64,000 nucleotides of DNA, taken from Roseiconus nitratireducens (lineage in GTDB: Bacteria > Planctomycetota > Planctomycetia > Pirellulales > Pirellulaceae). The notes beneath the pieces were generated by a model, which was given only the letters and a program-made list of their open reading frames with translations, had not been told where the DNA came from and made no database searches. Numbering within the stretch: position 1 is the first letter of the stretch; every line of letters starts with the position of its first letter. This document shows, one piece after another, positions 32,961 through 55,041 of this stretch. The stretch is taken from contig NZ_VWOX01000002.1 in NCBI RefSeq assembly GCF_008629675.1, positions 248,001 through 312,000 on the forward strand, written 5' to 3'. The position numbers and the translations under genes were made by a program.

Positions 32961-33185
32961 TACTGATCCGCATGATGCTCTCGAAACCGCCACAATGCCG
33001 CGACGATGCCTATAGACCAGACTTTTGGACCAACGCCTGGCGGGGCCGCACGGCCTTGAGGTAGCTACGCTCGCCAGAGCGACGAAGATGCCGCTCCGCC
33101 ACCATTTGACGACGGTAACAAGCGCGACTACGAGCGGAGCCAACTTCCCGCTGCAAGGCACCGTTGCCCAGCAAGTGGACCGCGG

Positions 33186-33289
33186 ACCAGATGGGTGGGA
33201 ACGCTCAGAGGCATTCCGGCCGGTAAATCACTGGTTTTTGCAAAAGAGGCGACGGTGGGATTCGAACCCACGAATAAAGGATTTGCAAT
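33186..33289 (+). repeat. Left attachment-site repeat (tRNA-distal end)
   Basis: Matches 47090-47193 at a constant offset of 13904 bp; the differences are at 33190, 33199, 33213 and 33235. From 33236 to 33289 the match is exact and covers the tRNA 3' half up to the anticodon loop. Identity stops at 33290. Confidence 0.88.
33247..33289 (-). pseudogene. Truncated tRNA-Cys 3' fragment
   Basis: 43 nt identical to the 3' part of the tRNA-Cys at 47151-47223 (acceptor 3' strand, T arm, variable region and 3' part of the anticodon arm). The 5' half is missing, so no functional tRNA can form. It is the remnant left at the far end of the integrated element. Confidence 0.9.
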
Positions 33290-33508
33290 TCGTCCCGTGA
33301 CGCCGGCTTTTCATGCTGAAAAACCCCGTTTCGGCTAATTCCCATGGTACCAGATATGCAAATTCGTTTGCAGCAATTCGCGTCAAATGGCGGTATCGAC
33401 AGTTGATCGGTATTTGCCGGTACTGAAGCGATCGCGGCGAGCGATGCAGTCCTGCATGGCCTTGATGGAGTACTACGAGACGCACGCAAAGGTACCGCAC
33501 CAGGAAAA

Positions 33509-34648
33509 CTACGGCAGTCGCGGCTTGCAGATTGCCGGCGGGACTGCCTGCTGCGGGATGGGCGGAGGCGTTGCGGTGGGGAACTCTGTGTCTCCTTTGG
33601 GAACTGCCAAGGCGGCCGCCCATCGATATGGCGAGGCCGTTACCTGCAGATCCAGCGAAGACGTCAACCACTCACTTGCACTGTGATTCGCCTGATTCCA
33701 ATCAGCCCAATCGATCCATACGCGAACGGAAAGCCCAGTTTCATCGCGAAGTCGCTTGAGCATCTGCAGCAATCGACTGCCAACACCCGCACGACGATAC
33801 TCCGGCCGTACAAAGAAGTCTTCCACCTCAAGGTATTTGCCCCGCCGTAATGCGATGTACCATCCTTTCCGTTCGTCGGCAGCGGCATCGAAGACTTCTC
33901 CAATGTGAATCATCGAATCTGGAAGCGGCGGCATTCCAAAGTTCAGTTGGTCCCACTCTATTTCATTGTGATCACCTTCCAGATTCTGAAAAAAAACGGG
34001 CAGTCTTCCTCCGCGTGGAATCGCGTATCCCCCGAAAAAGAAACGGTCGAAATAATCGAACGACAGATGTCCATATCCGGAATTCCCCCAGCCAGGGCCC
34101 CATGAGTTGGCAAAAGTAAAAAAGTCGCGGAAGGCGTTGACCGCCCCCACGCTCACGCAGTGCCCTCCAATTGGATGATCAGACGAGCTCGGAAGTTTGA
34201 TCAGCCCGTCGCTGTGATACCACTGCTCAAAAATATCAAACGCGCAGGCCGGTAATTGCCCGGATCCAATAAAGCGACTGCATGACGCCGCGTCGCGAAC
34301 CCGTTGATACCACCAGGCTCGATTCAGTTTTGCGGCCGCATCAAGGCCCTCTGGTTCTGTCCAGGGCCAACTGTCACCATCGGAGGCCGGACTCCACAAT
34401 CGTTCTTCGACGGAGCCCCAGCCCATCATTACGCGTGCCACGGATATCGGCCAGCTTCCTACTGAACCTTCGCCGGGGAGCGTGCCTTCAAGTTGTCGCG
34501 CACGGATCCAAAGATAGTCCCCACTGGTCGGCCCTTGGCCCTGCGAAGCTAAACGCTCAGCAAAGTGGTCAAATTCTGGCACAAAGTTCTCCAAAGGCGG
34601 TGTCCGGGAAGCCGGCGGAGCGACAGTGAGCCCGGGGCCGGGAATCAA
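33509..34648 (-). CDS. Papain-like (C1-type) domain lacking Cys, fused to GNAT acetyltransferase
   Basis: A cytoplasmic 379-aa two-domain protein. Residues about 25-215 resemble the C1 peptidase fold: GHCVSVGAVN carries the candidate His163 and FANSWGPGWGNSGYGHL the Asn181 and the NSWG-x-WG-x-x-GYG signature. At the place of the GSCGSCWAF helix it reads GSVGSWPISVA (61-71), so the catalytic Cys is absent. Residues about 245-350 are a GNAT domain with DFFVRPEYRRAGVGSRLLQM, matching the acetyl-CoA-binding RxxGxG loop at 286-290. The TTG start overlaps the TGA of the upstream HExxH gene (TTGA), so the two are probably coupled. Function unknown; it might bind rather than cut a protein and acetylate it. 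Confidence 0.75.
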   Translation of the reverse strand: MIPGPGLTVAPPASRTPPLENFVPEFDHFAERLASQGQGPTSGDYLWIRARQLEGTLPGEGSVGSWPISVARVMMGWGSVEERLWSPASDGDSWPWTEPEGLDAAAKLNRAWWYQRVRDAASCSRFIGSGQLPACAFDIFEQWYHSDGLIKLPSSSDHPIGGHCVSVGAVNAFRDFFTFANSWGPGWGNSGYGHLSFDYFDRFFFGGYAIPRGGRLPVFFQNLEGDHNEIEWDQLNFGMPPLPDSMIHIGEVFDAAADERKGWYIALRRGKYLEVEDFFVRPEYRRAGVGSRLLQMLKRLRDETGLSVRVWIDWADWNQANHSASEWLTSSLDLQVTASPYRWAAALAVPKGDTEFPTATPPPIPQQAVPPAICKPRLP

Positions 34649-35751
34649 GCGTCGTCTTGTGATCGCAGTTTAGCATTTTCGGCAATCCATTTTATCTCGT
34701 CCGCCCCGCGAACTTCCGCGATTAATGCGGGCATCACACCCGCTGACCAGATCATGACCGCATCCGCGAACTGAGTGATCCAGTCTGGATACCTCTGTTT
34801 CACGCTATTAAGCATTCTTACGAGACGCTCCATTGGCGAGGGGTACTCCGCGCCCGCCCTTGATTTGAACCCCAAGTTCTCATCGGTTGACCGACAGGCT
34901 TCAAGCAACACCTGAACACAGAACATGATACACGCACCCGCAACGCGGTAGTTTGCATCCAACGCCGCATCACGGTTCTCGTTTCGTAGGTCAGCGGGCG
35001 CAAGCAGCAGCGTCAACGCGAGATCATCGGCCGCAAACTCGTTGTGGAACCGTTCCACTGCACTGATCGACTCCAAAGATTCGTCGCAGTGTCCGTGTAG
35101 CACGTGAGCATACTCATGTGAAACGGCGAACAGTTCGGCGAAATATACAATCTGATCCAAGAAAGCCTGGCGTTGCCCCATGGGTATTTCATGCCGTGGC
35201 GCATGGTACACGGTGTGTTTATCTACAAGTGAATCGTATATCTCTACTAGAGAACTGATCGCTTGGGACTGCGTCCAACCCGACGGGGCGAAACCCGCAA
35301 TCTCCGACAGTGGTCGGGAGCCACTTGGCGATTCAAGCATTATGAAATCAAGGCTGTGACAGAAGACCTTGCATACTCGGTAAATAACCTGGAATAGTTC
35401 AGCACGCACCGTGACCAAGTAGCCACCTGGAGCGTTAACCGCCCCCGCGTTCGCGAAACCCGTAGGCAATGTTCTCAGCAGAACTTTGCCGGGCAGATTG
35501 GCGTTGCACGCCCGCACGGCAGATTCCACTTCGGCTTGTATCTGATCGAGAATGTAGTCGTAGACTTGATGAAATGGTCTGCATTGGAACATTGATGCGA
35601 CCTGATTCGCTTCGTCTTCCGTGGCCCCAGCTTCTTGGAGCAATTTCACCTGTGATTCAAAGTCACTTTCGCTGCATACTTCTTTTCCGAGCGGATCCGA
35701 ACGTAGCTTTTCCAAGTAGTACGATTCGATGCGATCGAGGTCAGAGTTCAT
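34645..35751 (-). CDS. HExxH zinc metallopeptidase-like protein, 368 aa
   Basis: A soluble putative zinc peptidase. The motif HEYAHVLHGH starts at residue 212, and NEFAADDLAL at 237-246 provides the third ligand Glu and an ExxAD pattern as in M48-type and related gluzincins. The N-terminal 200 residues are helical and unrecognised (KLLQEAGATEDEANQVASMF, VYHAPRHEIPMGQRQAF). No signal peptide or membrane helix is seen, unlike HtpX or Oma1. ATG 35751 has GGGAG about 12 bp upstream. It is the first gene of a two-gene unit with the Cys-less papain/GNAT fusion, inside the integrative element. Confidence 0.75.
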   Translation of the reverse strand: MNSDLDRIESYYLEKLRSDPLGKEVCSESDFESQVKLLQEAGATEDEANQVASMFQCRPFHQVYDYILDQIQAEVESAVRACNANLPGKVLLRTLPTGFANAGAVNAPGGYLVTVRAELFQVIYRVCKVFCHSLDFIMLESPSGSRPLSEIAGFAPSGWTQSQAISSLVEIYDSLVDKHTVYHAPRHEIPMGQRQAFLDQIVYFAELFAVSHEYAHVLHGHCDESLESISAVERFHNEFAADDLALTLLLAPADLRNENRDAALDANYRVAGACIMFCVQVLLEACRSTDENLGFKSRAGAEYPSPMERLVRMLNSVKQRYPDWITQFADAVMIWSAGVMPALIAEVRGADEIKWIAENAKLRSQDDA

Positions 35752-35842
35752 TGACTTCGAAATCTCCCAAAACAAGGCGTTCTCGCCCCGTCGCGTGTGG
35801 CGATAGCAGCAGCGCAGCGTCGCGTGAGAGACCTGATTCAGT

Positions 35843-36421
35843 CTATTTCGTCCACGCTCCGGAGCCGGCCGGATGCCAAACTAGGCGATCGTTGTGATCT
35901 TTCTGTCCATTGGCATTCCAGAAGAAACGGTCATCGAAGATCAAAAGCCGTATGTCTTCACGCGGAAAACGCAGCTGAGTTGCCACGGAATTCTTCTCTT
36001 CCTCGACGCCGTTCTTGTGCTTCGAGTCGTTTCCTGACCATTCTCCACCCGGCAGTCTCCGCAGAACGAGCCCGTCGTCGCTTCGAAACTCCGTCCGTGT
36101 GACCTCATCGTCGCCTTCGCGTCGTGTCTCCTTGATGACGTCCTCGCGACCGATCGTCTTGAAGAATGTCGTCGCTGCATCATTCGTGGGTTCGAGATAC
36201 AACGCTTCTTTGAACGAGTTTGAAGCCTTCTCGATATCGCCTGCCGATATCGCTTTCTGGCCAATGGCAACAAGCTTCACAACTGCCCGACGTTCGGCAG
36301 CCTCGATTGCGTCTTCGTATTCTCGCATCACTTGGCCAATCGTCGGGACCTGATCTGCCTCTTGGGCTCCGGCGGCTCCAGGAAACAAAACGCTGGCCAG
36401 CACGATGAATCGCATAAACAC
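35843..36421 (-). CDS. Secreted protein with TPR-like helices, 192 aa
   Basis: Signal peptide MFMRFIVLASVLFPGAAGAQ. Residues about 30-90 form amphipathic helices with TPR-like spacing (KAISAGDIEKASNSFKEALY followed by LEPTNDAATTFF). The C-terminal half is charged (REGDDEVTRTEFRSDDGLVL) and ends with an aromatic segment (DDRFFWNANGQ). No enzyme motif. It lies upstream of the HExxH gene with a gap of about 90 bp, in the same direction. Role unknown. Confidence 0.65.
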   Translation of the reverse strand: MFMRFIVLASVLFPGAAGAQEADQVPTIGQVMREYEDAIEAAERRAVVKLVAIGQKAISAGDIEKASNSFKEALYLEPTNDAATTFFKTIGREDVIKETRREGDDEVTRTEFRSDDGLVLRRLPGGEWSGNDSKHKNGVEEEKNSVATQLRFPREDIRLLIFDDRFFWNANGQKDHNDRLVWHPAGSGAWTK

Positions 36422-36627
36422 TATAGGACATCCTTCTTGATACGTTGTGATGAGAGTCCGCTGCGATGAAGCAATGGAGGCAAGCGGGAAAGGCCGTTAA
36501 CGAATCTCGGCCAGGGGCAATCCGAGTTTAGCGATGCATCGGCATCAGGGCTCGGAAAACCGGCGACTCCGGACCTCGCAGTTGCCAATGTGCGGCTCCG
36601 AAGCCGCCGGAATAAGTCCCAGCGATG

Positions 36628-37056
36628 TTAAGCGTCGTACGCTGTCAGACTGGCGATTGCGTGCTCAATTTCGGCAGCGGCTTCTTCTGCGGCCGCAGCA
36701 ACTTCATTCTCTGACTGATTCGCAATCACGATCAACTCAGGAATTCGTCTCGCGAGAGCAATACGCACGGTGATTGGAAAAGCCACGCGATCGTCGATAG
36801 CGTCGCAGGACAGCAGCATATTTTTGGAGTCGACGTGCGCTATGTGTAGGCCCAAGAACCCTTCATATGAGCCGTATCTCATGTACCCCCGGCAACGCCG
36901 ATCCGATACGTCGCATTCGCGCAACTCCTCCGTCACATCAATTTCACACGCTGGATGGCGGCTTCCTGGCAGGGTCTTCAGGACCTTCTCAGCAGCTCCA
37001 ATTTGCTCATTCAGTCGATCCAAAGAGGCGCGCGTACGTTCAGAGATTGGTGCCAT
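36628..37056 (-). CDS. Hypothetical protein, 142 aa
   Basis: ATG 37056 has a strong ribosome binding site (GAAGGAGCC). The N-terminus is a helix (SERTRASLDRLNEQIGAAEK), the middle is beta-rich with CEIDVTEELRECDVSDRRC, and the C-terminus is an Ala/Glu-rich helix (ENEVAAAAEEAAAEIEHAIA). Soluble; no family recognised. Part of the island cargo. Confidence 0.65.
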   Translation of the reverse strand: MAPISERTRASLDRLNEQIGAAEKVLKTLPGSRHPACEIDVTEELRECDVSDRRCRGYMRYGSYEGFLGLHIAHVDSKNMLLSCDAIDDRVAFPITVRIALARRIPELIVIANQSENEVAAAAEEAAAEIEHAIASLTAYDA

Positions 37057-37242
37057 AGTTGGCTCCTTCGAAAATAGAGGGGAACTCGGTCCCAAAGATT
37101 TGATTCCGGCCACTCGGGGTCCGGCGACGCGAACACGGTCGCGTCGGATAGCAATTGTTACGATTGAGCGGTCGGAAGTCAAGTTTTTCGCGCTATTGCA
37201 ATTCTGGCAGGTGTCGTCCGGTCAATTCAACGGGTTGAAACT

Positions 37243-37794
37243 TCAGGCGTCCAGTCGCCCACGAAGTAAGCACTCGCGGCCGAATCCGATCGGGGTTGAG
37301 TTGAACGTCCAGCGTTGAAATCCTCGCTCAAAGATCCATTGCGCTTCATAGACGCATCGCTGCCATTGCCGGTAGAAGGCGTCGACACATTCTTGGCTCT
37401 GGTAGATTTGCAAAAGCCTCAACTCGTGCTCACTACGAGGTTTCTTTCGTTCGTTGAGCCGATGAAGTAGCAGCGGTGCTGGCGCCCATGTGGTGATCAC
37501 GCAAACCGATTCGGGGCGAAGGTCCGGAATTGGCTTTCTTGTTACCGGGCCACCGTTCGGCCCGAGATTTGGCTTGAGGTCATTCTTCCCGATCTCTGAG
37601 AAGTCGATCTCGATCGCGAGGTTTTGCGGAAGGTGGCCCTTGACCGGGAGCGTGCAAGCCATGATTGACAGGTCCCACCAACCATCGATCGGCGGATCAA
37701 TGGGAATCGTCTCGCGAGAAAACCTAGCGAGAGTCGATTTCCCGCTGCACGGCATGCCGCCAAGAATAAACAGATTTTTGACACTCAATCCCAT
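37243..37794 (-). CDS. P-loop kinase-like protein, 183 aa
   Basis: A small nucleotide-binding protein with a Walker A motif GMPCSGKSTLARF at residues 13-25, as in zeta-toxin and gluconate-kinase-like ATPases. ATG 37794 has AAGGGG upstream. PIDGWWDLSIMACTLP and VCVITTWAPAPLLLHRLNER further along fit a phosphotransferase with a lid (RKPRSEHELRLLQIYQ is basic). No partner antitoxin is evident. It lies 19 bp after the TerB/BRCT gene and in the same direction, so the two may be co-expressed. Substrate unknown. Confidence 0.7.
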   Translation of the reverse strand: MGLSVKNLFILGGMPCSGKSTLARFSRETIPIDPPIDGWWDLSIMACTLPVKGHLPQNLAIEIDFSEIGKNDLKPNLGPNGGPVTRKPIPDLRPESVCVITTWAPAPLLLHRLNERKKPRSEHELRLLQIYQSQECVDAFYRQWQRCVYEAQWIFERGFQRWTFNSTPIGFGRECLLRGRLDA

Positions 37795-37813
37795 GCCCCT
37801 TGTCCGGGACGAT

Positions 37814-38725
37814 TTAACAAAGGTCTTCGACCGCATCCCAGTAGTCGTTCTCGTGAACAATCGCCACGGGAAACCCCTTCATCCGCAACGATACGGCCTG
37901 CTCGACCTTCCGACCGTAGCAGGAGAACGCCCAGCACGGATTCCCCTTGGCGCCGATGACCAAGTAGTGGAGCGATTGAGTCACCCTGGGTGAGAACCAC
38001 CCGCCCAGCTCGTGCACTTGTACGGCCAGTTGATCGCGGTTTGTCCGATCGGACGTGCCCGTAAAGCAGAAGCTCTTGTCATCGAACTGAATGTCGGGGC
38101 ACGAGTGGCAGACGCCGGAGACCAAGTGCGACCGTCCCGGCTGCGGTTTTGAAAACGCTTTTCCACCTGTGAGCGATGAGAACTCGTTGAAATACTCCAA
38201 GAGGAATGCATGTTCCTCCGGATCGATTCTGCCGTCGCGCATAACGCGAGTGACGTGGGAATCGATCTCGTCGTACGGCCAGCAGGTCCGAAGCTGATCA
38301 TTGTCATCGAGCCACTCGCGAAGACCTCGCAACTCGTCCTCCGTGATGATCCCGTCGGCGGCGATCCCGGCAACGATTCCTTGGAGCCTTTGCATGTCCG
38401 ACGAGAGTTCGCAGAAGAAACTGTTCTCGGTGGAGAACTTCTCGCAGAGCCAAAGGATGTCAGCTCGCTCTTCTTCGTCGACAGCGCCGTCGGCAAGAAT
38501 CTGATGAAGCCGGTCGATCACTTCGTTAAACGGATGCCGGTTGGCAAACTCTTCGTGCTCGCTGACCCATCGCGTCAGAGCCGTGAGTTCTTGCGTGTTA
38601 ACAAGGTTGTCGATCGAGATTCCGCGTACGATCCCTTCGAGCGTGTGCATCGCTTTGTCGACGCGTTGCGGGCCGGTGTAGCGAAGATAGTGTGCATTGT
38701 CCTCGTTGCGCATCATTGCCCCCAT
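37814..38725 (-). CDS. TerB-like / BRCT domain protein, 303 aa
   Basis: Two related helical repeats fill the N-terminal 190 residues (ILADGAVDEEERADILWLCE and GIAADGIITEDELRGLREWL), each with the acidic DG-x-x-x-x-EE pattern of TerB/DjlA-type domains. The C-terminus (about 215-300) is a BRCT domain: FDDKSFCFTGTSDRTNRDQL, VHELGGWFSPRVTQSLHYLV and GRKVEQAVSLRMKGFPVAIV, as in DNA ligase and RFC1. A Cys pair CHSCPD precedes it. It probably binds DNA ends or a phosphorylated partner. Starts at ATG 38725, 38716 or 38713 are possible; GGGGG upstream favours the later ones. Confidence 0.82.
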   Translation of the reverse strand: MGAMMRNEDNAHYLRYTGPQRVDKAMHTLEGIVRGISIDNLVNTQELTALTRWVSEHEEFANRHPFNEVIDRLHQILADGAVDEEERADILWLCEKFSTENSFFCELSSDMQRLQGIVAGIAADGIITEDELRGLREWLDDNDQLRTCWPYDEIDSHVTRVMRDGRIDPEEHAFLLEYFNEFSSLTGGKAFSKPQPGRSHLVSGVCHSCPDIQFDDKSFCFTGTSDRTNRDQLAVQVHELGGWFSPRVTQSLHYLVIGAKGNPCWAFSCYGRKVEQAVSLRMKGFPVAIVHENDYWDAVEDLC

Positions 38726-39291
38726 TGGATGGCAGGAAAGTTCATTGCGGTGTAAACGTTACAACACTCCCGAACGAACTGTGTGACCAACTGTCGACAA
38801 TCGGCCCGGTGACGTAGACCGCCAACGGGACCGCGATCTGGATGCCTTCCTTCGGTTCCCGGAATGCCCAGACAAATCTCTTGCCTCGCGATGGCGGTTC
38901 GGGAATCCCGGCGCCATCTCCAGTCATAGGGGCAATACGGGACCGGGTCCGGGCCGGGACCCCGAATCACCAACAGTAAGAGGCCCCATTTGGCACAGAC
39001 TAGCAGATTTGGCGTTCATGGTGGGGGGGCTGGTATTTTTCTGGCCACCCGTACACATGCTCCCCCCTCTTGGGTTATTATTTGGTCTGACGACTGCGAC
39101 CGGTAGGGGCCGGGGCGAAAGCAATTTTGAGCACACCGGTGAAATCATTTGCAGAAATGCAGATGTCTGTCCGCAACGACTTCCATCTGAAGCGAATGCA
39201 GTCGTCCTGAGAATTTCGGCGCGAGTGCGTCATCGCCTGGCTCAACGTGATTCCCCCGCGTTTCCGAATACTGCAATCCCAAAAGGTTGTG
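38726..39291. other. Island intergenic region with short unlikely frames
   Basis: About 565 bp between divergent genes. A 61-codon minus-strand frame (38742-38927) contains IQIAVPLAVYVTGPIVDSWS, which is protein-like and may be a gene remnant. A GC-rich inverted repeat (GGGTCC/GGACCC) lies near 38945-38961. Otherwise only promoters for the two flanking genes are expected. Confidence 0.4.
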
Positions 39292-40350
39292 ATGAGATTG
39301 ATCTACTTGTTGGCGGTTCTGGCTGCCATGGCGCAGTTTGCCTCGGCCGGTGTCTTGGCTTCCAGGTTTAATTACTCGACCGGTAGCACGTATCACCTGT
39401 TGGAGTCGACGACGTGGACGGCGTCGCAGGCCGAAGCCCGTCGGTTGGGAGGGGATCTCGTAACGATCGATGACCTTGACGAGAACAACTGGGTTTACGA
39501 CACCTTCACGCCTCTCGTCGCCGATGCAGGGGGGCTTTGGATCGGTCTCAATGATGTCGCAAATGAAGGGGCATTCGAGTGGGTGAGCGGAGAGCCAGTG
39601 ACGTTCACCAATTGGACGGCCAGCGAACCGAATAACTCTGGACCGCAAGGTGCGGAAAACTTTGCGCACATCGTCACCAAGCCCTTTCTTAACTTCGTGT
39701 TGGGAGAATGGAACGACGTCGCAGATAACGCCGCGATGCGTTACGGCGTTGTCGAAGTGCCTGGGTTCATTCAAAACGGAAGTTTTGAGACTCCCGACGT
39801 TTCACCGGGGCGTCTCTTTGGCTTTGGCGACTCAATCGGTGGATGGAATGTTGTGTCCGGCAATACCGCCTTCTTGATTGACCAAGTGACAAACACGGGA
39901 GAGCCAGTTGATGGAAACCAGTTCATTGAAATTCACGGCGACACGATTCAGCAAACCGTCACTGGCCTAAAAGTTGGCCAGCGATACAAACTGACTTACT
40001 ACGCGACCGCACGAACTCTGCCCGACTATTTCGGCTCCGGTTCGATAATCGCCACGATCGGCGGGGAGACGGACCATTACGACTATTTCCTTCCGTCCGG
40101 CTCCTATCTCTACAACTCTCCGGTCTCGCCATGGGCGAGACGCGACGTCGAGTTCATCGCAGCCGACACCACAGCGTCACTGACGTTCTCAGGCACGGCA
40201 GCAGGGCCGCTCGGCGCGATCGACGCGGTTCGAATAACAGCCGTTCCCGAACCTAGCACGGCAGCCATTTTCTTGCTTGGTGGCATGCTCGGGATGGCTA
40301 TCCGTCCAAAACGAAACGCGAGTGCAATCACGCGGCCTCTCGTCAAATGA
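39292..40350 (+). CDS. C-type lectin domain protein with PEP-CTERM anchor, 352 aa
   Basis: An exported surface protein. ATG 39292 follows AAAAGG and opens a signal peptide (MRLIYLLAVLAAMAQFASAG). A C-type lectin-like domain covers about 35-165 (STTWTASQAEARRLGGDLVT, LWIGLNDVANEGAFEWVSGE, NWTASEPNN, GEWNDV). A beta-sandwich follows with the NGSFETPDVSPG opening used by DUF642/choice-of-anchor carbohydrate-binding domains. The C-terminus is a PEP-CTERM sorting signal: VPEPSTAAIFLLGGMLGMAI, then a basic tail. It depends on an exosortase encoded elsewhere. Its place in the island suggests a surface or adhesion trait. Confidence 0.85.
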   Translation: MRLIYLLAVLAAMAQFASAGVLASRFNYSTGSTYHLLESTTWTASQAEARRLGGDLVTIDDLDENNWVYDTFTPLVADAGGLWIGLNDVANEGAFEWVSGEPVTFTNWTASEPNNSGPQGAENFAHIVTKPFLNFVLGEWNDVADNAAMRYGVVEVPGFIQNGSFETPDVSPGRLFGFGDSIGGWNVVSGNTAFLIDQVTNTGEPVDGNQFIEIHGDTIQQTVTGLKVGQRYKLTYYATARTLPDYFGSGSIIATIGGETDHYDYFLPSGSYLYNSPVSPWARRDVEFIAADTTASLTFSGTAAGPLGAIDAVRITAVPEPSTAAIFLLGGMLGMAIRPKRNASAITRPLVK

Positions 40351-40470
40351 GCGACTAGAACGCCGCGTGATGCCACCAGGCAAATCATTGGATGCGATGC
40401 CGATCAGTGGAGCCTTTCTGTAGTGCGAGGCCTGTAGGTTTTGTCGATCCCGCGTGAATTTACCGAATCG

Positions 40471-41130
40471 ATGGAGATGAAATACCAAATCATTAAGAGC
40501 GTAACGGGCAGATCCATCAAGTATTCATGTCCGAAATGCCATACCGTTCTTAGGTCTGCACTCAGGGAGGCAGGGCAATCGGATGCCTGCCCGTCGTGTG
40601 GAAATGCGTTCATTGTTCCCGGCCAGAAAGAGAGAGCCGAGTTCGAGGCCATAAGGGAAGCCAAGAGACGTGAAAAACTCGAAGCCAAGGAGAGAGAGCG
40701 GGCGAGACGCCAACAAGAATCTCTTCAGGCTGCAGCAGAAAAAGATGCTGAAAATCAACGTATCGAGATGGCGAAACGAGAGCGATCTATGCGGGAAGCA
40801 AGAGCGGCCCAATCACTGGCCGGCTCATGTTTCGACATTGCCATGCATGATTGGTCGACCGGTGCACCCTGGGCCTATGAGTGCATCGAACTCGGAACTC
40901 TTTCGGGGAACTGGCAATCCGAAATGAAGGTACTCCTGAACAACATGGCGTCTAAGGGTTGGGAGTTTTACCGTACTGAATCGCTGACAGCGGAGCGTCC
41001 CAATGGCTGTTTGGCAGCGTTGTTTGGAAGCCCGACTAGCACGTACGAAGTCGCCGTCTTGGTGTTTCGGCGCCCCGCTTCTGTCATAACTCGCGAGATT
41101 GATGTGAAAAGCGAACTTGGTTTGGTATGA
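40471..41130 (+). CDS. Zinc-ribbon / coiled-coil protein, ~219 aa
   Basis: The N-terminal zinc ribbon has CPKCH and CPSCG pairs about 20 residues apart. A highly charged coiled coil follows (EAIREAKRREKLEAKERERA, then RRQQESLQAAAEKDAENQRI). The C-terminal 90 residues form a compact domain, with WAYECIELGTLSGNWQSEMK, LLNNMASKGWEFYRTESLTA and YEVAVLVFRR, which resembles the DUF4177 fold. ATG 40471 or 40477 may be the start; both have only weak ribosome binding sites. Cytoplasmic, function unknown. Confidence 0.65.
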   Translation: MEMKYQIIKSVTGRSIKYSCPKCHTVLRSALREAGQSDACPSCGNAFIVPGQKERAEFEAIREAKRREKLEAKERERARRQQESLQAAAEKDAENQRIEMAKRERSMREARAAQSLAGSCFDIAMHDWSTGAPWAYECIELGTLSGNWQSEMKVLLNNMASKGWEFYRTESLTAERPNGCLAALFGSPTSTYEVAVLVFRRPASVITREIDVKSELGLV

Positions 41131-41224
41131 CCAAACCGTCGTTCGTTGGAGGATAAGGAGCCACACGACTTGATCGAGGCGAAAGATCTTTGAGATTTGA
41201 ACGCTCAGATAGCCAGGATGTTAA

Positions 41225-41419
41225 ATGAACCCCTACGAGCCAACGGTATCAGCGGCACCGGAAAAGCGGACCAAGTACTCGCGACTCTTCGTTGATTGGC
41301 TCAATCCGCTTGAGAAGATGATCGCGATAATTACGGCCGTAGTATTCATCGCGATGGCTTTGTTTGTCATTGGCATCAGTCTGTACGCCGTAGTCGCGGT
41401 CGTGGTTGACGCCCATTGA
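41225..41419 (+). CDS. Small membrane protein with N-terminal NPYEP motif, 64 aa
   Basis: MNPYEPTVSAAPEKRTKYSR precedes one long hydrophobic segment (about residues 32-60). AGGA lies about 8 bp upstream of the ATG. It has the same architecture as the NPY/NPF small membrane proteins outside the island, so the motif is carried by the mobile element too. Function unknown. Confidence 0.62.
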   Translation: MNPYEPTVSAAPEKRTKYSRLFVDWLNPLEKMIAIITAVVFIAMALFVIGISLYAVVAVVVDAH

Positions 41420-41844
41420 AAACCGGCGACCTCGTCGACGCACGATATCACCGCCAGCAGTGTGGCACCGAGAATTGAACCTGCTGCGGTACAAAAAGGC
41501 CGGCAAGCGGGGACCGCAACAAATTGCGAATCCCCGCCACCGGCGAGCCGGAGTGTAACTGATGGTCCGGAGCCGTGGGACCGGGGCAACGGATACCCGG
41601 ATTTCCAGCAGCGCACGGTGTGATTGCGAGGGGGTTCTCCGCCAGAAACGCCGTCAAATTGGCGGCGTTTTTGAGCCTGGAAAACACGGGGTTTTTTGTT
41701 TGACGGACCGCGATTTTCTCGTTTTTCGCGCTCGTGAATTCGGCCAGAAACTACCGCTGCTTCACTTATTGCTGGACGCGTGCCCACCCGCCATCGGGGA
41801 GTGCCTATACTGGCCCGCTTTTCACTGACCAAATGGGGACAAAC
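41420..41844. other. Island intergenic region
   Basis: About 425 bp without a supported gene. It contains a clear terminator at 41646-41672 and the promoter and ribosome binding site of the PDZ-protein gene at its right end. Nothing else is recognised. Confidence 0.5.
41646..41672 (+). terminator. Rho-independent terminator
   Basis: Perfect 8-bp stem AAACGCCG/CGGCGTTT with a 9-nt loop, running into five Ts on the plus strand. It would end transcripts coming from the small membrane-protein gene at 41225. Confidence 0.75.
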
Positions 41845-42708
41845 ATGCGATGCACTCTTGCTTTGATATTTACGCTTGCAGCGGGACTTGTGACTGCAGC
41901 GGGTCCTGAAACCTCACCGTGGAAAACTGATCGGTTTTCCGGCTTCTATTCGTGCGACGTCACTGATCTGAGTGATGCACTGCCTGAGAACTTCAGCCGC
42001 TCAATCGGTAGCCAGAAAGGCGCACTCGTGCTTTCTGTCGCACCCGGATCACCAGCAGCGAAGGCCGGGCTGAGGAAGTTCAATATCGTGACAATGGTCA
42101 ACGGCGAGAATGTTGAAACGGCCGAGCAACTTGCGTCGGAAATGAAGAAGACACCGTCCGATGAAACCCAAATACTTCGAGTCGAACAGCCGACCCTGCG
42201 TCGGAACAGCTTCCGGTGGAAAAGCCGCATCATTCGGTTCCAGCCTGTGCCAATTGCCGATTGGGCGGGCGATCGTGTGTCCGTTTCAAAGGATACGATT
42301 TCAGGAGTCACCACACTGGAGCCACGTGAGAAGCCAAACATCACACGGGGATCGGGCTTTTACGCCTACGCGGTAGCGAAGGGCGGCCAGAAGGACACGT
42401 TCATCCGCTTTTACCGATCCGGTGATGATTGGCTATTCATGAAGCGGTTTGAGATTCGATCGGGCGGTGAAACATACCTAGAGTCGCGTGGCTTTTTTGA
42501 CGTGGAACGGGATAACTCCGCTGGTCGTGTTTGGGAATACTGCGACGTCCCATTTGCTGGTGATGTCAAAGAAGCCCTTCAAGCGATGATGCAAGGAAGT
42601 CCAGCAACCCTGCGGTTCAGCGGAGAACAATATCGAGAGGACCACGAGGTAAGCGAAATTGAACTCTACGACACCATGGCCGTGATCGCTGCAGCGGAAG
42701 CTTTGTAG
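41845..42708 (+). CDS. Secreted PDZ-domain protein, 287 aa
   Basis: Signal peptide MRCTLALIFTLAAGLVTAAG; ATG 41845 has GGGG 5-6 bp upstream. A PDZ domain covers about 45-125: GSQKGALVLSVAPGSPAAKA, then AGLRKFNIVTMVNGENVETA with the typical GD-like turn replaced by FN. The C-terminal 150 residues are unrecognised and beta-rich (GFYAYAVAKGGQKDTFIRFY, SGDDWLFMKRFEI). No protease domain is fused, so it is probably a periplasmic binding or scaffold protein. It ends 1 bp before the convergent methyltransferase frame. Confidence 0.75.
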   Translation: MRCTLALIFTLAAGLVTAAGPETSPWKTDRFSGFYSCDVTDLSDALPENFSRSIGSQKGALVLSVAPGSPAAKAGLRKFNIVTMVNGENVETAEQLASEMKKTPSDETQILRVEQPTLRRNSFRWKSRIIRFQPVPIADWAGDRVSVSKDTISGVTTLEPREKPNITRGSGFYAYAVAKGGQKDTFIRFYRSGDDWLFMKRFEIRSGGETYLESRGFFDVERDNSAGRVWEYCDVPFAGDVKEALQAMMQGSPATLRFSGEQYREDHEVSEIELYDTMAVIAAAEAL

Positions 42709-42709
42709 A

Positions 42710-43213
42710 TCAATAGGCTGCGACTACGCGTCTCACGTTCCCGTCGGTCACAATCTGCACCGCTGATGGCCGACGCCCGACCATCCGGTCCAGCTTCGGC
42801 AAGTCGATCGGATCCTGAACGTGATACTTGCACCAGCCCGCCGGCCATTGGTACGGAACCGTGATGATCACCGATCGGCCCACCGCGAACAGCCGGTCGA
42901 CGAACGCCGGCAACTGCTCGTCCGTCAGGTGCTCGATGACCTGGCAACAGGTGACAACGTCGGCATGCTGAACCGGTAGCTCCATCGTCGCCCAGTCGCC
43001 GATCAGCGTCTCAACACAGTCCCGATCGGCCAGCCGTTCCAGATTGATTGCGATACGGCGTTGGAAGTCGCCCTGTTGAATCACGTTGGTACTACCGTTG
43101 CCCACGTCGATCAGCGTGCCGGCCGGACTGAGTGATTCGAGAACCGAAGCGACCGCCTTCTAATAGTTCAAATCGCGGCGGGCCGCTGCATAGGCTTTCC
43201 AATCATTCGTCAT
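42710..43213 (-). pseudogene. SAM-dependent methyltransferase interrupted by an in-frame TAG
   Basis: Downstream of TAG the frame encodes a class I methyltransferase-like segment: motif I TLIDVGNGSTNVIQQ, then CCQVIEHLTDEQLPAF and VGRSVIITVPYQWPAGWCKY. Upstream, ATG 43213 begins 17 codons (MTNDWKAYAAARRDLNY) in exactly the same frame; codon 18 is TAG (43160-43162), where one base change would give Tyr. The ATG overlaps the end of the glycosyltransferase gene by 11 bp, as expected of an operon partner. It is either a recent nonsense mutation, a sequencing error, or read from an internal GTG (43105) as a shortened protein. Confidence 0.65.
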
Positions 43214-44384
43214 CGTCACGCCTCCTGTGAAAGTAGTCGCGGACCTCTTGGTGCAGATCGGGTTTATCGCTGGACCATTCCAGGATCCCGTCCGCATTGA
43301 TTCGCACGTCCTGCGCCGGGTCAAAGGCGTTCCGCTGCAGGATCTTCTCCCGCGATTCGTACTGCCGGTGTCCCATGTTTCCGTGCCAGAGGTGATAGGT
43401 GGTCGCGTCCACGAAGCCGGCGGACGGGCTGTGCCGCCCCATCCTTTCGACATACGCATCCAATTCCCGCTGCAGCGATTCGCACATGATCGCGCGGCGA
43501 CTCAGGTACTTCTCGCCGAAGTACCGCGCGAGGCCGAAGTAGAACCATTGGTCCCCGCCGCCGACGATGTGACACGATTGCAGACCGCCAATCGCGTCCA
43601 TGAACGCCCGGTCTGCCAACCAAAGCCCGCCGGGATTGCCCCGCATTTCCTCACCGGTCGACACGCGGCCGGGGATGTCGTTCTTCCAGCGACGATCCGC
43701 TTCCAGGTATTTGATCGTCCGGAACAGTTGGACCGCCTTCGTCCCACGATCGATCATCGCCATCGCGTCGACCAGCCAGCGCGGATTCACCGTCACCATG
43801 TCGTGATCGAGCCAACCGAAGTACCGGATGTCCGGTGGGCATTCGCGCAGCGCGACGTTGATCAGCGCCTCTTTCTGCCAAAGCCAATGATCGCGTCGGT
43901 TGCCATAAATGACGGTCGATCCGTCAATCTCCGGTCGGTCGTTATCCAGAACCAACTCGTACACTCGGACCGCTTTTGCAATTCCTCCCAAGGACGGCAG
44001 CCATTCGCTGAACGTTTCGCGGATCCGTCGCGACCGACACGGATTGAAATGAACCACCGCAAGCCTGACCTGATCCAAGTTTCGGGGCACCACGGGATTC
44101 GCGGTGTCAACGAGGTGCGGGAAGTTCCCGATCGGGCAACCGAATCCGTGCGACAATTGCCGGGGGAGCGACTTCGGTTCGTCTAGCAGGGCGCACTTCA
44201 GACAGGTCGGGCTTCCGTTTGGGCACGCATGGCAGATGCCTGCTGCCGCGCGGATGTGCTGGATCATCGTGAAGTCGCTCGCTGGCCGATTCGATCCACG
44301 GACGTGGACCGTCTTCCCGCAGCATTCAAACTGCCGGCGGTGATTGGCTCCGAAAGTCCGGTTGCACTGGGAACACTTTGTCAT
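43203..44384 (-). CDS. Cys-cluster glycosyltransferase-like protein, 393 aa
   Basis: The N-terminus is a zinc-finger-like region with CSQCNRTFG, ECCGKTV, then CHACPNGSPTCLKC. A GT-A type transferase domain follows (about 110-330): LAVVHFNPCRSRRIRETFSE, WLWQKEALINVALRECPPDI, then the metal-binding FGWLDHDMVTVNPRWLVDAM around residue 190, and GGGDQWFYFGLARYF. The DHD triad replaces the usual DxD. The start ATG 44384 overlaps the stop of the upstream gene as ATGA; the end overlaps the methyltransferase start. Acceptor unknown; a mobile-element enzyme that glycosylates a surface glycan, protein or nucleic acid are all possible. Confidence 0.75.
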   Translation of the reverse strand: MTKCSQCNRTFGANHRRQFECCGKTVHVRGSNRPASDFTMIQHIRAAAGICHACPNGSPTCLKCALLDEPKSLPRQLSHGFGCPIGNFPHLVDTANPVVPRNLDQVRLAVVHFNPCRSRRIRETFSEWLPSLGGIAKAVRVYELVLDNDRPEIDGSTVIYGNRRDHWLWQKEALINVALRECPPDIRYFGWLDHDMVTVNPRWLVDAMAMIDRGTKAVQLFRTIKYLEADRRWKNDIPGRVSTGEEMRGNPGGLWLADRAFMDAIGGLQSCHIVGGGDQWFYFGLARYFGEKYLSRRAIMCESLQRELDAYVERMGRHSPSAGFVDATTYHLWHGNMGHRQYESREKILQRNAFDPAQDVRINADGILEWSSDKPDLHQEVRDYFHRRRDDDE

Positions 44385-44992
44385 GGTGTGAATGTCCATG
44401 TCACATCGCAATCACCTTCGTCGCCTTCGAGGGCACAACCGGCGTCTGCGCTCGATGTCCCTTCGCCGACAAGGTTCAATGTGAAGCCGCTTTGCAGGTC
44501 ATTAAGGCCAACGTCCAGCGCGGTCGAACCACCGCCGTTGTAAGTCGCGTAGGCGAAGCTCCCGCCGGGCTGCGGACATTCATACAACCATTCCTGGATT
44601 ACGCTCATCGTGACGCGAAACACGGGAATCGGGTATTCCGTCCCCGGCGTGGGTGTTGGAAAGTGGAGAGCGACGCGGCCACTCGCGGTAATTTGCAGCC
44701 GACCGTCCGTTGCGCCCGGACCGCTGTTCGCAGTACCCCCGGCGATCACCTGATACAGCGTGTAGTTGTCAGACGGATCGGTGGCACCGGACAATTCATC
44801 TTTGATCCATCGCGACAGCTCGCAATCCCACGCGCAAAGGCCGTCACGTTCGGCACCTTCGTTTGCCCACGCCTCGGACGGGTAGTACGTCCAAAACGGC
44901 TCGGTTGTGTGGTCCCAAAGAGTGTTCGGAAGGAGCAATGAGTTCCACTGCCAATCGGTTTGAGCGGTCACAGTGCGGGTCCCGCCCGACAC
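44381..44992 (-). CDS. Hypothetical protein, 203 aa as read; 5' end probably frameshifted
   Basis: Unrecognised protein upstream of and overlapping the glycosyltransferase gene (ATGA). It is rich in aromatic residues and Thr/Gly (DWQWNSLLLPNTLWDHTTEP, VIQEWLYECPQPGGSFAYAT), suggesting a beta-rich structural or virion-like protein. The GTG start at 44992 is doubtful. In the +1-shifted frame just upstream, a protein-like stretch (HTVAIPATVELPPGATQAGT) leads into it if one T is added to the TTT at 45011-45013. An ATG at 45120 could then begin the whole gene. Confidence 0.55.
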   Translation of the reverse strand: MSGGTRTVTAQTDWQWNSLLLPNTLWDHTTEPFWTYYPSEAWANEGAERDGLCAWDCELSRWIKDELSGATDPSDNYTLYQVIAGGTANSGPGATDGRLQITASGRVALHFPTPTPGTEYPIPVFRVTMSVIQEWLYECPQPGGSFAYATYNGGGSTALDVGLNDLQSGFTLNLVGEGTSSADAGCALEGDEGDCDVTWTFTP

Positions 44993-45336
44993 TGGCCCGC
45001 TGCTGGGCGTAAATGGTGGGTCCCAGCCTGCGTGGCGCCGGGGGGCAATTCGACCGTGGCCGGAATTGCTACGGTGTGGGAGAGTTGTCCGGCATCATGC
45101 CGGAGGGAACAATGGTCCATATTGGGTCGCTTCAGTTGTTTCGCGCGACTCCACCGGTATGATGGACCCACGCAGTTGCCGCTGCTTTGCCGGTGCTCCC
45201 AATACCAAACGGAGAATGACAGTCTCACATTTGGGGGTGCCGGCCTTTTCATGCGCCGGTCGGCACCGGCGCGTCTGATTGACTGGTTCGGCCCGCGAGT
45301 CTGGTCGCTGCTAGGCCGGAGATTGAAGCTCGGCGA

Positions 45337-45573
45337 TTACGCCGGCTGCTGGGTGCGTTCGAGGAATCGCGTGACCGCTTGACGTGACGTGAAGCGGTGT
45401 TGTCCGATCCGGACTGTTTCCAGCTTGACGCCTCGAAGCCCGCGATTTTGCCAACGCCAAACGGTGGCCTGATGGGGACGCGCGGAACTTGGGAACAACT
45501 TGGCCGCGTCAGGGATGCTGACCAAATCCTCGGTCAGCAGATGGAGATTACTTTCAGGGCTCATCCGACTCAC
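45337..45573 (-). CDS. DUF1580-like DNA-binding protein (excisionase-like), 78 aa
   Basis: A small helix-turn-helix protein. The body SIPDAAKLFPSSARPHQATV then WRWQNRGLRGVKLETVRIGQ and RFTSRQAVTRFLER matches the DUF1580 pattern found beside planctomycete integrases: a winged helix with a TxYRW-like TVWRW and a TSreAl-like TSRQAV. It probably binds the attachment site or controls excision. It lies about 200 bp downstream of the integrase gene in the same direction. Confidence 0.75.
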   Translation of the reverse strand: MSRMSPESNLHLLTEDLVSIPDAAKLFPSSARPHQATVWRWQNRGLRGVKLETVRIGQHRFTSRQAVTRFLERTQQPA

Positions 45574-45769
45574 TCACTTCGTTTCGGTGGTTGTTCGAAA
45601 GAAACCACCAAAGGAGTCGACCTGAGCGCGCACGTCCAAACGGTGATTTCTTCTCTCCGTTGGATACGTGCGCGGCGATGAGGCCACGTGTCTCAATCAC
45701 CTACAGCCCGTGCTGACTGAGACGTTCACAATGTTAGCGGTCGCAAACACAATTGCAAACCGTTGCAGC

Positions 45770-47020
45770 TTAGAGTTTTGGTGCTGCTTTCGCCGCCCGC
45801 GTTGCCGCTTCGATGCTCTCGCGAGCGTAGTGAGCGGTCATCAATGCCGTCGAGTGCCCAAGTAAGGCTCGGGCATCCTCAATACCGAGTGCAGCACGGA
45901 CTTCTGTGGCCGTCAGGTGGCGGATCTGATACGGGGTCCACTTCGGAACCTTCATGCGTTTTGCGGCACGTGTGATCGCCTGGTAATAGGATGCGGTCGT
46001 GTAGTGGTCACGGGGAGTCCGTTTCGGATTCGCTTTGCGGTTGGATCCGGGGCGGTTGCCCTGGTTTAGAGGCGTCTGTCGGTTCGCCGTTCCAATTGCC
46101 CGGCGCCATGCCATCGCCTCGGCCGGGCTGAAACAGTAGGTGTTGGGGTCTCTCTGCAGGTATTCAGTAACCGCATCGCGCGCATCGCCAACCAACGGGA
46201 TCGCTTTCGGCTTGCCGGTCCAGTCCGTCTTGTGCTGACTCAATCGATAGACCCACACGTCACCGCTCCGGTCGATGTCGCACGGTTTCATGATGCAGAT
46301 TTCCTTCGGGCGTGCTCCGGTGGCCACCTGGATTCGCAGCATGGCCTTTACTACCGGGGACAGCAGCTCGGCAGTTTTGCGCACGTCTCCGATCGGAACC
46401 GGTACGACGGGGGCAACTTCCCTCGCGGTCGTCTGCCCTTTTCGAAGCGGCTCCAGTGATTTCAGTTGGGCTACCTTCGTCGCGTCGATCAGTTCTCCAG
46501 CGACAGCATGCCGGAAGATCGCAACCACGCAGTTTGTCAGCCGGTTTACGTACTTTCGAGCGAAACCTTCGTCGACCAAGGTTTTCCGGAATGCTTTCAG
46601 CTTCACCGGGCCGAATTGTTCAGCCGCCACGTCACCGAATTGCTTGTCCAGCCGATCACACAGTTTGTCGTGCCGGCTTTTTTCTGACGGAGTGTTCTTG
46701 TACTTCTCTGCGATGTGCTCGCGGAACAGGCCAGTAACGTGACGAACCAGAATCGGCTGATCGGTCTGATGAGTGGCTGCCGCTTGCGGCGCGGACACGC
46801 CGAGTAGCAACGCCACGTGGGCGTCCAGCGACGTCGGATCGAAGTCATCGGGAAGTGACAACCCGTTCTGCTGGTAGACCGTGATCAGGGCAGCGTAGCG
46901 GGCGATGGACTCGGGTGAGTCGTGCTTGCCGAGATAGAAGTCACGGCCGGCGATCGTGACAACAGATTGGCCGCTGATGTGGTAGCGGCGTGCCGGGGCT
47001 TTAGCCTTGGGTCTGGCCAT
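45770..47020 (-). CDS. Tyrosine recombinase (integrase) of the island
   Basis: The site-specific recombinase that inserted the element, 416 aa. Catalytic residues are Arg237 in TGARPKE, a Lys in the QHKTDWTGKPKAIPL beta-hairpin, Arg367-His368 in PYQIRHLTATE (the usual first His is Tyr here), His389 in LLGHSTALMT and the nucleophile Tyr398 in AHYARESIE. A SAM-like core-binding domain precedes (about 90-200), and the N-terminus is basic (MARPKAKAPARRYH) for arm-site binding. ATG 47020 has GGGAG upstream; a start at 47089 adds residues read through attachment-site DNA. It is transcribed inward from the tRNA-Cys end. Confidence 0.93.
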   Translation of the reverse strand: MARPKAKAPARRYHISGQSVVTIAGRDFYLGKHDSPESIARYAALITVYQQNGLSLPDDFDPTSLDAHVALLLGVSAPQAAATHQTDQPILVRHVTGLFREHIAEKYKNTPSEKSRHDKLCDRLDKQFGDVAAEQFGPVKLKAFRKTLVDEGFARKYVNRLTNCVVAIFRHAVAGELIDATKVAQLKSLEPLRKGQTTAREVAPVVPVPIGDVRKTAELLSPVVKAMLRIQVATGARPKEICIMKPCDIDRSGDVWVYRLSQHKTDWTGKPKAIPLVGDARDAVTEYLQRDPNTYCFSPAEAMAWRRAIGTANRQTPLNQGNRPGSNRKANPKRTPRDHYTTASYYQAITRAAKRMKVPKWTPYQIRHLTATEVRAALGIEDARALLGHSTALMTAHYARESIEAATRAAKAAPKL

Positions 47021-47089
47021 CGGTGGGACTCCCGTTCGAATCCGGACCGAGTTTTTCGGTACAGATTCGGTTTTGAAACGGGGCCGCAC

Positions 47090-47193
47090 ACCAAATGGGT
47101 GGTAACGCTCAGAGGCGTTCCGGCCGGTAAATCACTGGGTTTTGCAAAAGAGGCGACGGTGGGATTCGAACCCACGAATAAAGGATTTGCAAT
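47090..47193 (+). repeat. Right attachment-site repeat (tRNA-proximal end)
   Basis: Direct repeat of 33186-33289, four differences in 104 bp. It overlaps the 3' 43 nt of the intact tRNA-Cys gene and continues about 60 bp beyond the tRNA 3' end toward the integrase gene. Confidence 0.88.
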
Positions 47194-47223
47194 CCTTCGC
47201 CTTAGCCACTTGGCCACGTCGCC
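47151..47223 (-). tRNA. tRNA-Cys (GCA)
   Basis: The 73-nt gene folds as a cloverleaf: acceptor GGCGACG/CGTCGCC, D arm with AAGTGGC-TAA, anticodon stem AAGGA/TCCTT with loop TTGCAAA (anticodon GCA), T arm GTGGG-TTCGAAT-CCCAC, discriminator U73 as in tRNA-Cys. CCA is not encoded. It is the integration target of the adjacent element, which restores its 3' half. Confidence 0.95.
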
Positions 47224-48251: not shown

Positions 48252-48599
48252 CGCCTCGCGTCCCCTGCGGTGATGATGCTCTCGGAAGCTGGAATCACCA
48301 GTCGAGTCACCGGTAGCGACGCTCGCCAGAACGTGGCTTTCCGCTGCGAACGTGACGGAAGCTACGGGGTTGTGCGATTCTTCAGACGGAGCCTGGAGCG
48401 TGCGTGGAGGGCATCGTTGCCGTTGGGCGAGTCCACCGTCTGGCGACGGTGGCTACGTCGACCACCGCGACGCGGTCCTCCCCGTGTTTCATGGGCTGCT
48501 CCGTGGTGTTGCCGGCCGCAGCCAGGCGGTAAGGTGTGTGCGTTTCGGGCGTCTCTCTGTGCCCTCTCCGCCATCTCACGAAACTCGATCAAATACATC
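48252..48599. other. Intergenic region with a family B repeat
   Basis: About 350 bp. A single family B copy lies at about 48312-48395 and a short related piece (CACCGTCTGGCGACGGTGGC) at about 48437. A frame in phase with the next gene runs across it but is repeat translation. Confidence 0.5.
48312..48395 (+). repeat. Family B repeat, single diverged copy
   Basis: AGCGACGCTCGCCAGAACGT, GGCTTTCCGCTGCG, then GACGGAAGCTACGGGGTTGT and CTTCAGACGG, in the same order as one unit of the 55042-55480 array, with the middle palindrome degraded. Confidence 0.7.
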
Positions 48600-53867: not shown

Positions 53868-55010
53868 ATGGCGAAGAAAAACCAAAAACGCAAACAGTCG
53901 CGCGTGGCTTTCCGCAAACGGCACCAGGGGAGGGTGCGCGACAGTGATTTGACCCGCCAGTTTCGTTCGGGAGAGTCCCTGGAGGACGCGGCAAAGAATG
54001 AACGCGTCAGCGGGAAAGGCGATTTGACGCGTAAGCGGACGGTGGTTGGCGTTGATGCCGAACAGCCGACGCAGTCGGACGCTGCCGAATCCAATGCTTC
54101 GCCGCTGATCGACGGCCGCGTGACATGCGTCCATGGTTTGGTCAACACGGTGCTGGCCGACGACGGACGCCACTTCGAATGCGCGATCCGCCAGGTATTG
54201 AAGTCCGTCAGTATCGAAGGTCGCGGAGCCGTCGTGGCCGGGGATCGCGTCCGATTTCGATCCGAATCCGACGACACGGGGATGATCGAGTTCGTCGCCC
54301 CGCGACACGGCGTGATCAGTCGTCAGAGTCGAGGGCAGCAGCACGTCATCGCTGCCAACGTCGACCACCTGTTGATCGTCACCAGTGCCGCCGAACCGAC
54401 GCTGAAACCGGCCCTGATCGATCGATTCTTGCTGTCGGCCGAACAATGCCAGGTCAACCCGGTCATCATCATCAACAAGTGCGATCTGATTGATCCCGCA
54501 TCGATTCAGCCGCTGGTCGGTGTCTACGCCGCGATGGGCTACCGAGTGCTGATGACCAGTGCCGAAGCGGGAACCAACATCCAATACCTGCGCGAACTGT
54601 TGAAGGGAAAGCAGACGGCATTTTCGGGGCAGAGCGGCGTTGGCAAGAGCAGCCTCCTGAACGCGGTGCAGCCCGGCCTGGGATTGGCCGTCTCCGAGGT
54701 CAGCAGCGACAACCAGAAAGGTCGACACACCACGACCACGTCCCGATTGATCCCGCTGGCCGATGGCGATGGGGCCGTGTTTGACACACCCGGGATCCGG
54801 CAATTCCAACTGTGGGACATCAGCCCCGAAGAGGTGGCCGGACTGATGCCCGACCTGCGTCCCTACGTCAGCCGGTGCCGCTACTCAAATTGTCTGCACC
54901 TGAGCGAAGACGACTGCGCGGTGAAAGACGCGGTCGCCGACGGCCGGATCGACGCACGACGCTACGATTCGTACTGCCACCTGTTGGAAGATGACTTGCT
55001 GCTCGGTTGA
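53868..55010 (+). CDS. rsgA: Ribosome small-subunit-dependent GTPase A
   Basis: A circularly permuted GTPase that checks late 30S maturation. 380 aa from ATG 53868. A basic N-terminus ([20 protein letters not shown]) and OB-fold domain (about 80-150) precede the G domain, in which G4 (NKCDL) comes before G1 ([12 protein letters not shown], about 255-266) and G3 ([12 protein letters not shown]), the permuted order. A C-terminal zinc-binding region has [14 protein letters not shown]. The 60-residue charged N-terminal extension is longer than in E. coli. Its 3' end faces the tandem family B repeat array. Confidence 0.94.
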
Positions 55011-55041
55011 TCGGGGTGGGTCTTTGTCTGAAAACCAGTAG

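Follow-up and report, generated by a model that had tools for sequence, protein, structure and literature searches.

The window analysed here, a stretch of 64,000 nucleotides from Roseiconus nitratireducens (Pirellulaceae; contig NZ_VWOX01000002.1, positions 248,001 to 312,000 of the forward strand), carries two overlapping minus-strand genes, the second of which (gene 2, 33509-34648, 379 residues from a TTG start) encodes a papain-like domain without its catalytic cysteine, fused to an acetyltransferase domain of the GNAT family. The reading that we favour, to which we give a little less than even weight, is that gene 2 specifies a peptidase-dead, cleft-guided predicted GNAT acetyltransferase which is cargo of a likely mobile element at a tRNA-Cys gene. 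Because the cysteine has been lost and its partner histidine and asparagine have been kept, the protein is likely to grip and modify its targets rather than cut them. Losing a whole nucleophile segment should bring drift in what is left, and yet the remaining catalytic set is kept in 28 to 29 of the 29 family members aligned. The family therefore offers a clean test case of what a peptidase half-site can do, alone or with a fused acetyltransferase.

Domain structure of gene 2

The acetyltransferase part of gene 2 (about residues 233-350; 33599-33952, minus strand) is indicated by predicted structure and by two Pfam profiles that exceed their cut-offs (PF00583, 31.1 against 20.7 bits, and PF13508, 27.8 against 27). 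The acetyl-coenzyme A (acetyl-CoA) motif of GNAT enzymes is Arg/Gln-x-x-Gly-x-Gly/Ala, and the RRAGVG of gene 2 fits it, Arg285 and Gly288 each being kept in 28 of the 29 fusion members and Gly or Ala at position 290 in 27. The papain-like part occupies about residues 38-212 (34013-34537, minus strand). Its match to PF00112, over residues 136-195 including the histidine and asparagine, lies under the Pfam cut-off at 16.7 against 20.7 bits, a cut-off that some other fusion members do exceed, such as P0010 (30.7). The predicted structure of gene 2 backs a papain fold: residues 37-215 of the model, the N-terminus of which is of low confidence, align almost end to end with residues 50-254 of the cathepsin B heavy chain (1huc_B), and this part is predicted to resemble the heavy chain of a cathepsin from which the light chain is missing.

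A preliminary description of this region had proposed a papain/GNAT fusion. The GNAT half of that proposal is borne out by Pfam; for the papain half it is the predicted structure that lends support, the PF00112 score falling short. The residues that it had singled out, namely His163 (34160-34162, minus strand), Asn181 within NSWG (34106-34108, minus strand) and RRAGVG, are all present. A PADLOC search with gene 2 gave nothing at an expectation value (E) of 1.

Loss of the cysteine segment

A first protein search with gene 2 returned 11 fusion homologs, which align with 72-88% of its length at E 1e-64 to 1e-40, beside four weaker papain-family matches. A second, alignment-based search, in which 7993 candidates were scored, gave at least 12 more fusion-type entries, including P0022 (the protein of locus L004), as well as C1 relatives; the matches listed from it omit some fusion members of the first search. 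The alignment used for our census holds 29 fusion members and 10 C1 relatives, the latter hand-picked among the hits without GNAT. Locus L004 is represented by P0022, which is that gene read from a later start, and the incomplete L020 was excluded; outside the alignment stand P0034-P0039 and also P0015, L025 and L026, in all three of which a cysteine was seen by eye.

The column of the catalytic cysteine holds Cys in all 10 C1 relatives and in none of the 29 fusion members, of which 26 have a gap and three an Asn, the N-termini of these three being poorly aligned there. The equivalents of the catalytic His and Asn (His163 and Asn181 in gene 2) are kept in 29/29 and 28/29 fusion members, and the Ser182, Trp183 and Gly184 that complete NSWG in 25, 28 and 27. 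The shortest fusion proteins begin right before the conserved RQLEGT block, which is downstream of the cysteine helix, and the remaining ones carry unrelated N-terminal extensions. The papain-like domain of gene 2 is thus Cys-less because the whole Cys-helix segment is gone. In this the preliminary description was right about the absence of the cysteine but not about its place, which it had put at GSVGSWPIS (residues 61-69; 34442-34468, minus strand). Two alignments set that stretch on a later loop, the 'SD-SGAMIRDG' block which true C1 peptidases have after their Cys helix, and a mutated Cys site is ruled out there. A cysteine elsewhere beside His163 and Asn181, which would have overturned the idea of a dead site, also appears to be absent as judged from the alignment, no column being conserved as Cys among the 29 (the most frequent, at position 123, is Cys in 17).

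The fusion architecture spans Pirellulaceae genomes, a Bryobacterales metagenome-assembled genome (MAG) and a Myxococcales MAG. Among 199 genomes of the bacterial family to which the window belongs, 18 have a match at E 1e-3, and both domains are covered in five, including the genome of the window (G000, an 8.2-megabase assembly that is 93% complete, and of the same family as G198, discussed below). Among contigs, a first scan for fusion relatives found none and a second found three loci.

It might be supposed that gene 2 is a decaying peptidase remnant on a dying island, and the PF00112 score below cut-off, the TTG start and the low-confidence N-terminus of the model would all agree with such an origin. 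This is contradicted by the conservation of one architecture in 29 members. A ratio of nonsynonymous to synonymous substitution (dN/dS) of about 0.1 in the papain part of the single pair for which it could be computed also speaks against it, and we give decay almost no credence. The pair in question, L003 (from G087) and L005 (from G186), was compared by the simple NG86 method. In the papain part dN was 0.041 and dS 0.383, in the GNAT part dN was 0.063 and dS 0.276, and in the remainder dN was 0.028 and dS 0.351; between G087 and G077 dS was saturated.

All the aligned fusions share Arg72, Phe179 and Gly193, none of which is invariant in the C1 set. Arg72 (34433-34435) is present in 29/29 fusion members, and the 10 C1 relatives have A, E, K, Q or S at this position. 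It is conceivable that the two domains form a composite active site, in which a CoA thioester delivered by the GNAT domain into the papain cleft replaces the acyl-cysteine, and the acceptor is activated by His163 and Asn181, acting as base. The retention of His and Asn in spite of the loss of the nucleophile segment would suit such a site, as would a fusion-specific invariant arginine, and its existence would mean that peptidase chemistry had been converted to an acyl transfer in which no catalytic cysteine takes part. However, retention of the His and Asn is also explicable by peptide binding or by folding, and a composite site seems to us improbable.

The near end-to-end match to the cathepsin B heavy chain could instead point to a split peptidase, in which the cleft is completed, and activity restored, by a Cys-bearing light chain that a separate gene encodes. 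A profile of the Cys-helix segment was run on 8705 frames from the window, from 54-58 kilobases (kb) around four relatives, from loci L019 and L021 and from two control loci; it found only the two controls (about 1e-29), the next best match being a 22-residue frame at E 0.097. In the whole genomes G000, G077, G198 and G087 the profile found nothing at E 0.1, and in G186 one weak match (E 0.07, in a 739-residue frame), the two control genomes giving about 1e-30 (about 1e-29 to 1e-31 across both searches). The controls are rows of the profile and therefore show only that it runs, and the negative is limited by the incompleteness of the assemblies searched (G000, for example, at 93%). A scan of G000, G077 and G198 with PF00112 at 1e-3 gave no match, but says little because that profile misses the fusion genes of these genomes as well. 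On balance we consider it scarcely probable that a light chain is supplied from elsewhere.

The island and related elements

The 13.9-kb island (33177-47198) carries genes 1 and 2 at one end and, just inside the repeat at the opposite end, its integrase, a tyrosine recombinase (45770-47089, minus strand; PF00589 1.1e-11, phrog_1 2.9e-29). The island has an integrase, an intact tRNA at one end and a partial copy at the other, as is expected of a tRNA-integrated element. Its left attachment repeat (33177-33294, plus strand) consists of 118 nucleotides of partial tRNA-Cys 3' end and flank and is 92% identical to the right repeat (47081-47198, plus strand), a direct repeat that overlaps the intact tRNA-Cys (gca; 47150-47223, minus strand) serving as the integration site. 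The preliminary description had placed the genes on an island, and the attachment repeats, the integrase and the tRNA-Cys agree with it.

Two further genomes hold the fusion in elements of a similar kind. In G077 a 21-kb element sits in tRNA-Cys between exact 50-nucleotide repeats. Its integrase adjoins the tRNA, and the fusion lies at the opposite end, separated from the repeat there by a single putative frame of 190 residues. In G198 (Neorhodopirellula pilleata) a 21.4-kb element in tRNA-Val, with an exact 48-nucleotide repeat, holds both fusion and integrase. When frames of at least 60 residues, chosen by length, were compared among the three elements at E 1e-4, the integrase and the fusion were all that they had in common. 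Because the fusion was the means by which these elements were detected, the only informative part of this comparison is the absence of any further common cargo. On the Myxococcales contig the fusion starts 28 nucleotides after an integrase gene. The G087 gene is flanked by repeats of 229, 99 and 62 nucleotides, which is suggestive, although the 56 kb around it yielded no relative of the integrase in the window. A 78-nucleotide repeat around the G186 gene was left out of the attachment sites because we suspect it to be a dispersed repeat.

Several other observations concern these elements and their surroundings. Other genes of the island in the window include a phage-like one (at 37814-38725, matching phrog_3989 at E 8.8e-86) and those for a PDZ protein and for a C-type lectin that bears PEP-CTERM. 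Before the left attachment copy of G077 there is a fragment (L052, 6805-7084) that matches the beginning of the integrase region in the window and is perhaps the remains of a neighbouring element. In a same-genus genome, three tRNA-Cys attachment copies of 46-49 nucleotides (G138:C1, 5070705-5070750, 5111903-5111950 and 5131518-5131566) are spread over about 61 kb, which suggests tandem elements at a tRNA-Cys hotspot. A family of spaced repeats of about 110 nucleotides lies outside the island at 54981-55445 and 48301-48457.

Gene 1 and other partners of the fusion

Gene 1 (34645-35751, minus strand) is a predicted HExxH zinc peptidase of 368 residues, counted from the ATG at 35751 within a mechanically listed open frame of 34645-35775 on the same strand. 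As had been described, it bears HEYAH at residues 212-216 and a downstream ExxAD motif (EFAAD, 238-242), and its stop overlaps the start of gene 2 by the four nucleotides TTGA (34645-34648, minus strand). Direct searches with gene 1 found only itself in the protein database and, among 391 other genomes of the phylum, no homolog. Distant HExxH proteins, two in number and with 25-27% identity to it, were reached only via a PADLOC profile; one such protein, from a same-family genome (L073, 1408-2553) and obtained with the peptidase_U41 profile, is 25% identical to gene 1. The matches of gene 1 itself to PADLOC profiles are weak (peptidase_U41 1.5e-6, Cas10_Id 0.0097, capP 0.3), and its model, from an alignment of three rows, is too poor to support a fold comparison, with a mean predicted local distance difference test (pLDDT) score of 46.7 and a predicted template modelling (pTM) score of 0.50. 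HExxH is the motif of Lit, which cleaves EF-Tu on infection. The label PF10463 is a precomputed one attached to an identical 368-residue protein; our own scans did not give it, one of them being silent on control genomes too.

The preliminary description saw the HExxH peptidase and the fusion as a conserved two-gene system, and the 4-nucleotide overlap in the window would be in keeping with this. Such a system is not supported, because gene 1 has no direct-search homolog and has no counterpart at seven other loci of the fusion, where neither a gene-1-like frame nor any frame with HExxH followed by ExxAD was found nearby, with some of the contigs being short. At the fusion loci that could be read, then, the pair expected outside this genome does not co-occur, and we judge a conserved pair very improbable. 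A defence role for the two genes is nevertheless plausible, and one relative of the fusion, that of G077, stands in a run of genes that may bear on it: it follows genes for an MmeI-type restriction-modification enzyme, a helicase and a GIY-YIG protein on the same strand, starting 65 nucleotides after the GIY-YIG gene without overlap.

In G198 an HNH gene overlaps the end of the fusion by four nucleotides, GTGA (L055, 10677-10680), in a manner that resembles the overlap between genes 1 and 2. The G077 protein ends in a DUF900 alpha/beta hydrolase, and identity among the proteins of G077, G087 and G186 is 69-92% across 706 residues. Other C-terminal extensions occur in P0005, P0006 and P0023-P0027; the last five share one that combines a hydrophobic stretch with a conserved I-[KR]-A-K-L-G-D-L-x-L-x-T-S-E module, which went unrecognised in Pfam scans of four of these five. 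These arrangements could mean that the papain/GNAT protein is a constant immunity or control protein, which binds and acetylates a co-encoded toxic effector such as gene 1, an HNH nuclease or the fused hydrolase. The two 4-nucleotide overlaps and the C-terminal hydrolase and extensions would fit a regulator of this kind, but just two partners encoded in trans have been read, none was recognised near L019, and the G077 fusion does not overlap the GIY-YIG gene before it. We regard this as unlikely, while allowing it some weight.

Proposed action of the papain/GNAT module

In the reading that we favour, that of a cleft-guided acetyltransferase, a peptide or protein would bind in the papain-derived cleft and be acetylated there by the GNAT domain with acetyl-CoA. 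The module may act in conflict among mobile elements, hosts and phages, pairing with different effectors from one element to another. These effectors would be the HExxH protein (gene 1) here, the HNH protein in the G198 element and the fused DUF900 alpha/beta hydrolase in G077 and, by 69% identity, in its relatives G087 and G186.

Several points weigh against this reading. The three elements were found via the fusion, and its presence in them is thus by construction. Gene 1 is not a recurrent partner at the seven other loci, and near the Bryobacterales fusion (L019) neither an effector nor an integrase was recognised by eye. No relative of the fusion was found in phage and plasmid collections, nor in one scan of viral contigs. 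In the PDB the GNAT part comes closest to acetyltransferases of thialysine and diamines, and the substrate could for this reason be small. In P0010 the Arg/Gly motif of the GNAT domain is degenerate. The 29 fusion members, finally, are not independent cases, because they include several close pairs such as L003 and L005, which are 92% identical. The fusion family also provides a recurring cargo gene of small tRNA-integrated Pirellulaceae elements, whose possible part in conflict between elements and phages can be put to the test.

Comparison with known systems

Gene 2 shares with C1A peptidases (PF00112; for example xylellain, 3ois, and cathepsin B) the His, the Asn-Ser-Trp-Gly and the fold that follows the Cys helix; it differs from them in having no N-terminal Cys-helix segment and in its added GNAT domain. 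The combination of papain-like and GNAT domains in one protein has a precedent in DUF3335 (PF11814), which, in the part of PMC10318531 that deals with it, is described as often fused to GNAT. Gene 2 has no PF11814 match at E 1, is C1-like and has lost its Cys segment.

A papain-type fold that has no Cys and does not cleave is known from the C39-like domain (CLD) of HlyB-type transporters, according to the relevant section of PMC8277102. In the CLD, as presented in that section, a single residue (Tyr, Leu or Asn) replaces the Cys and the domain is borne on an ABC transporter, whereas gene 2 has lost the entire segment and has GNAT as its partner. For conflict systems, Kaur et al. (2020, eLife; PMC7159879) have proposed dead peptidase domains as peptide binders or dominant negatives, and inactive enzymes as decoys; the domains in the passages concerned are caspase and trypsin domains of other systems. 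The relevant passages of PMC10318531, PMC7159879 and PMC8277102 do not name the fusion family.

Gene 1 can be set beside Lit (peptidase U49), a phage-exclusion protease, in that both have HExxH. The possible tie between them is that of the precomputed PF10463 label, not reproduced by our own scans, and of a weak PADLOC match. The papain/GNAT fusion family is real and unusual, and its novelty is that of a variant of kinds already known.
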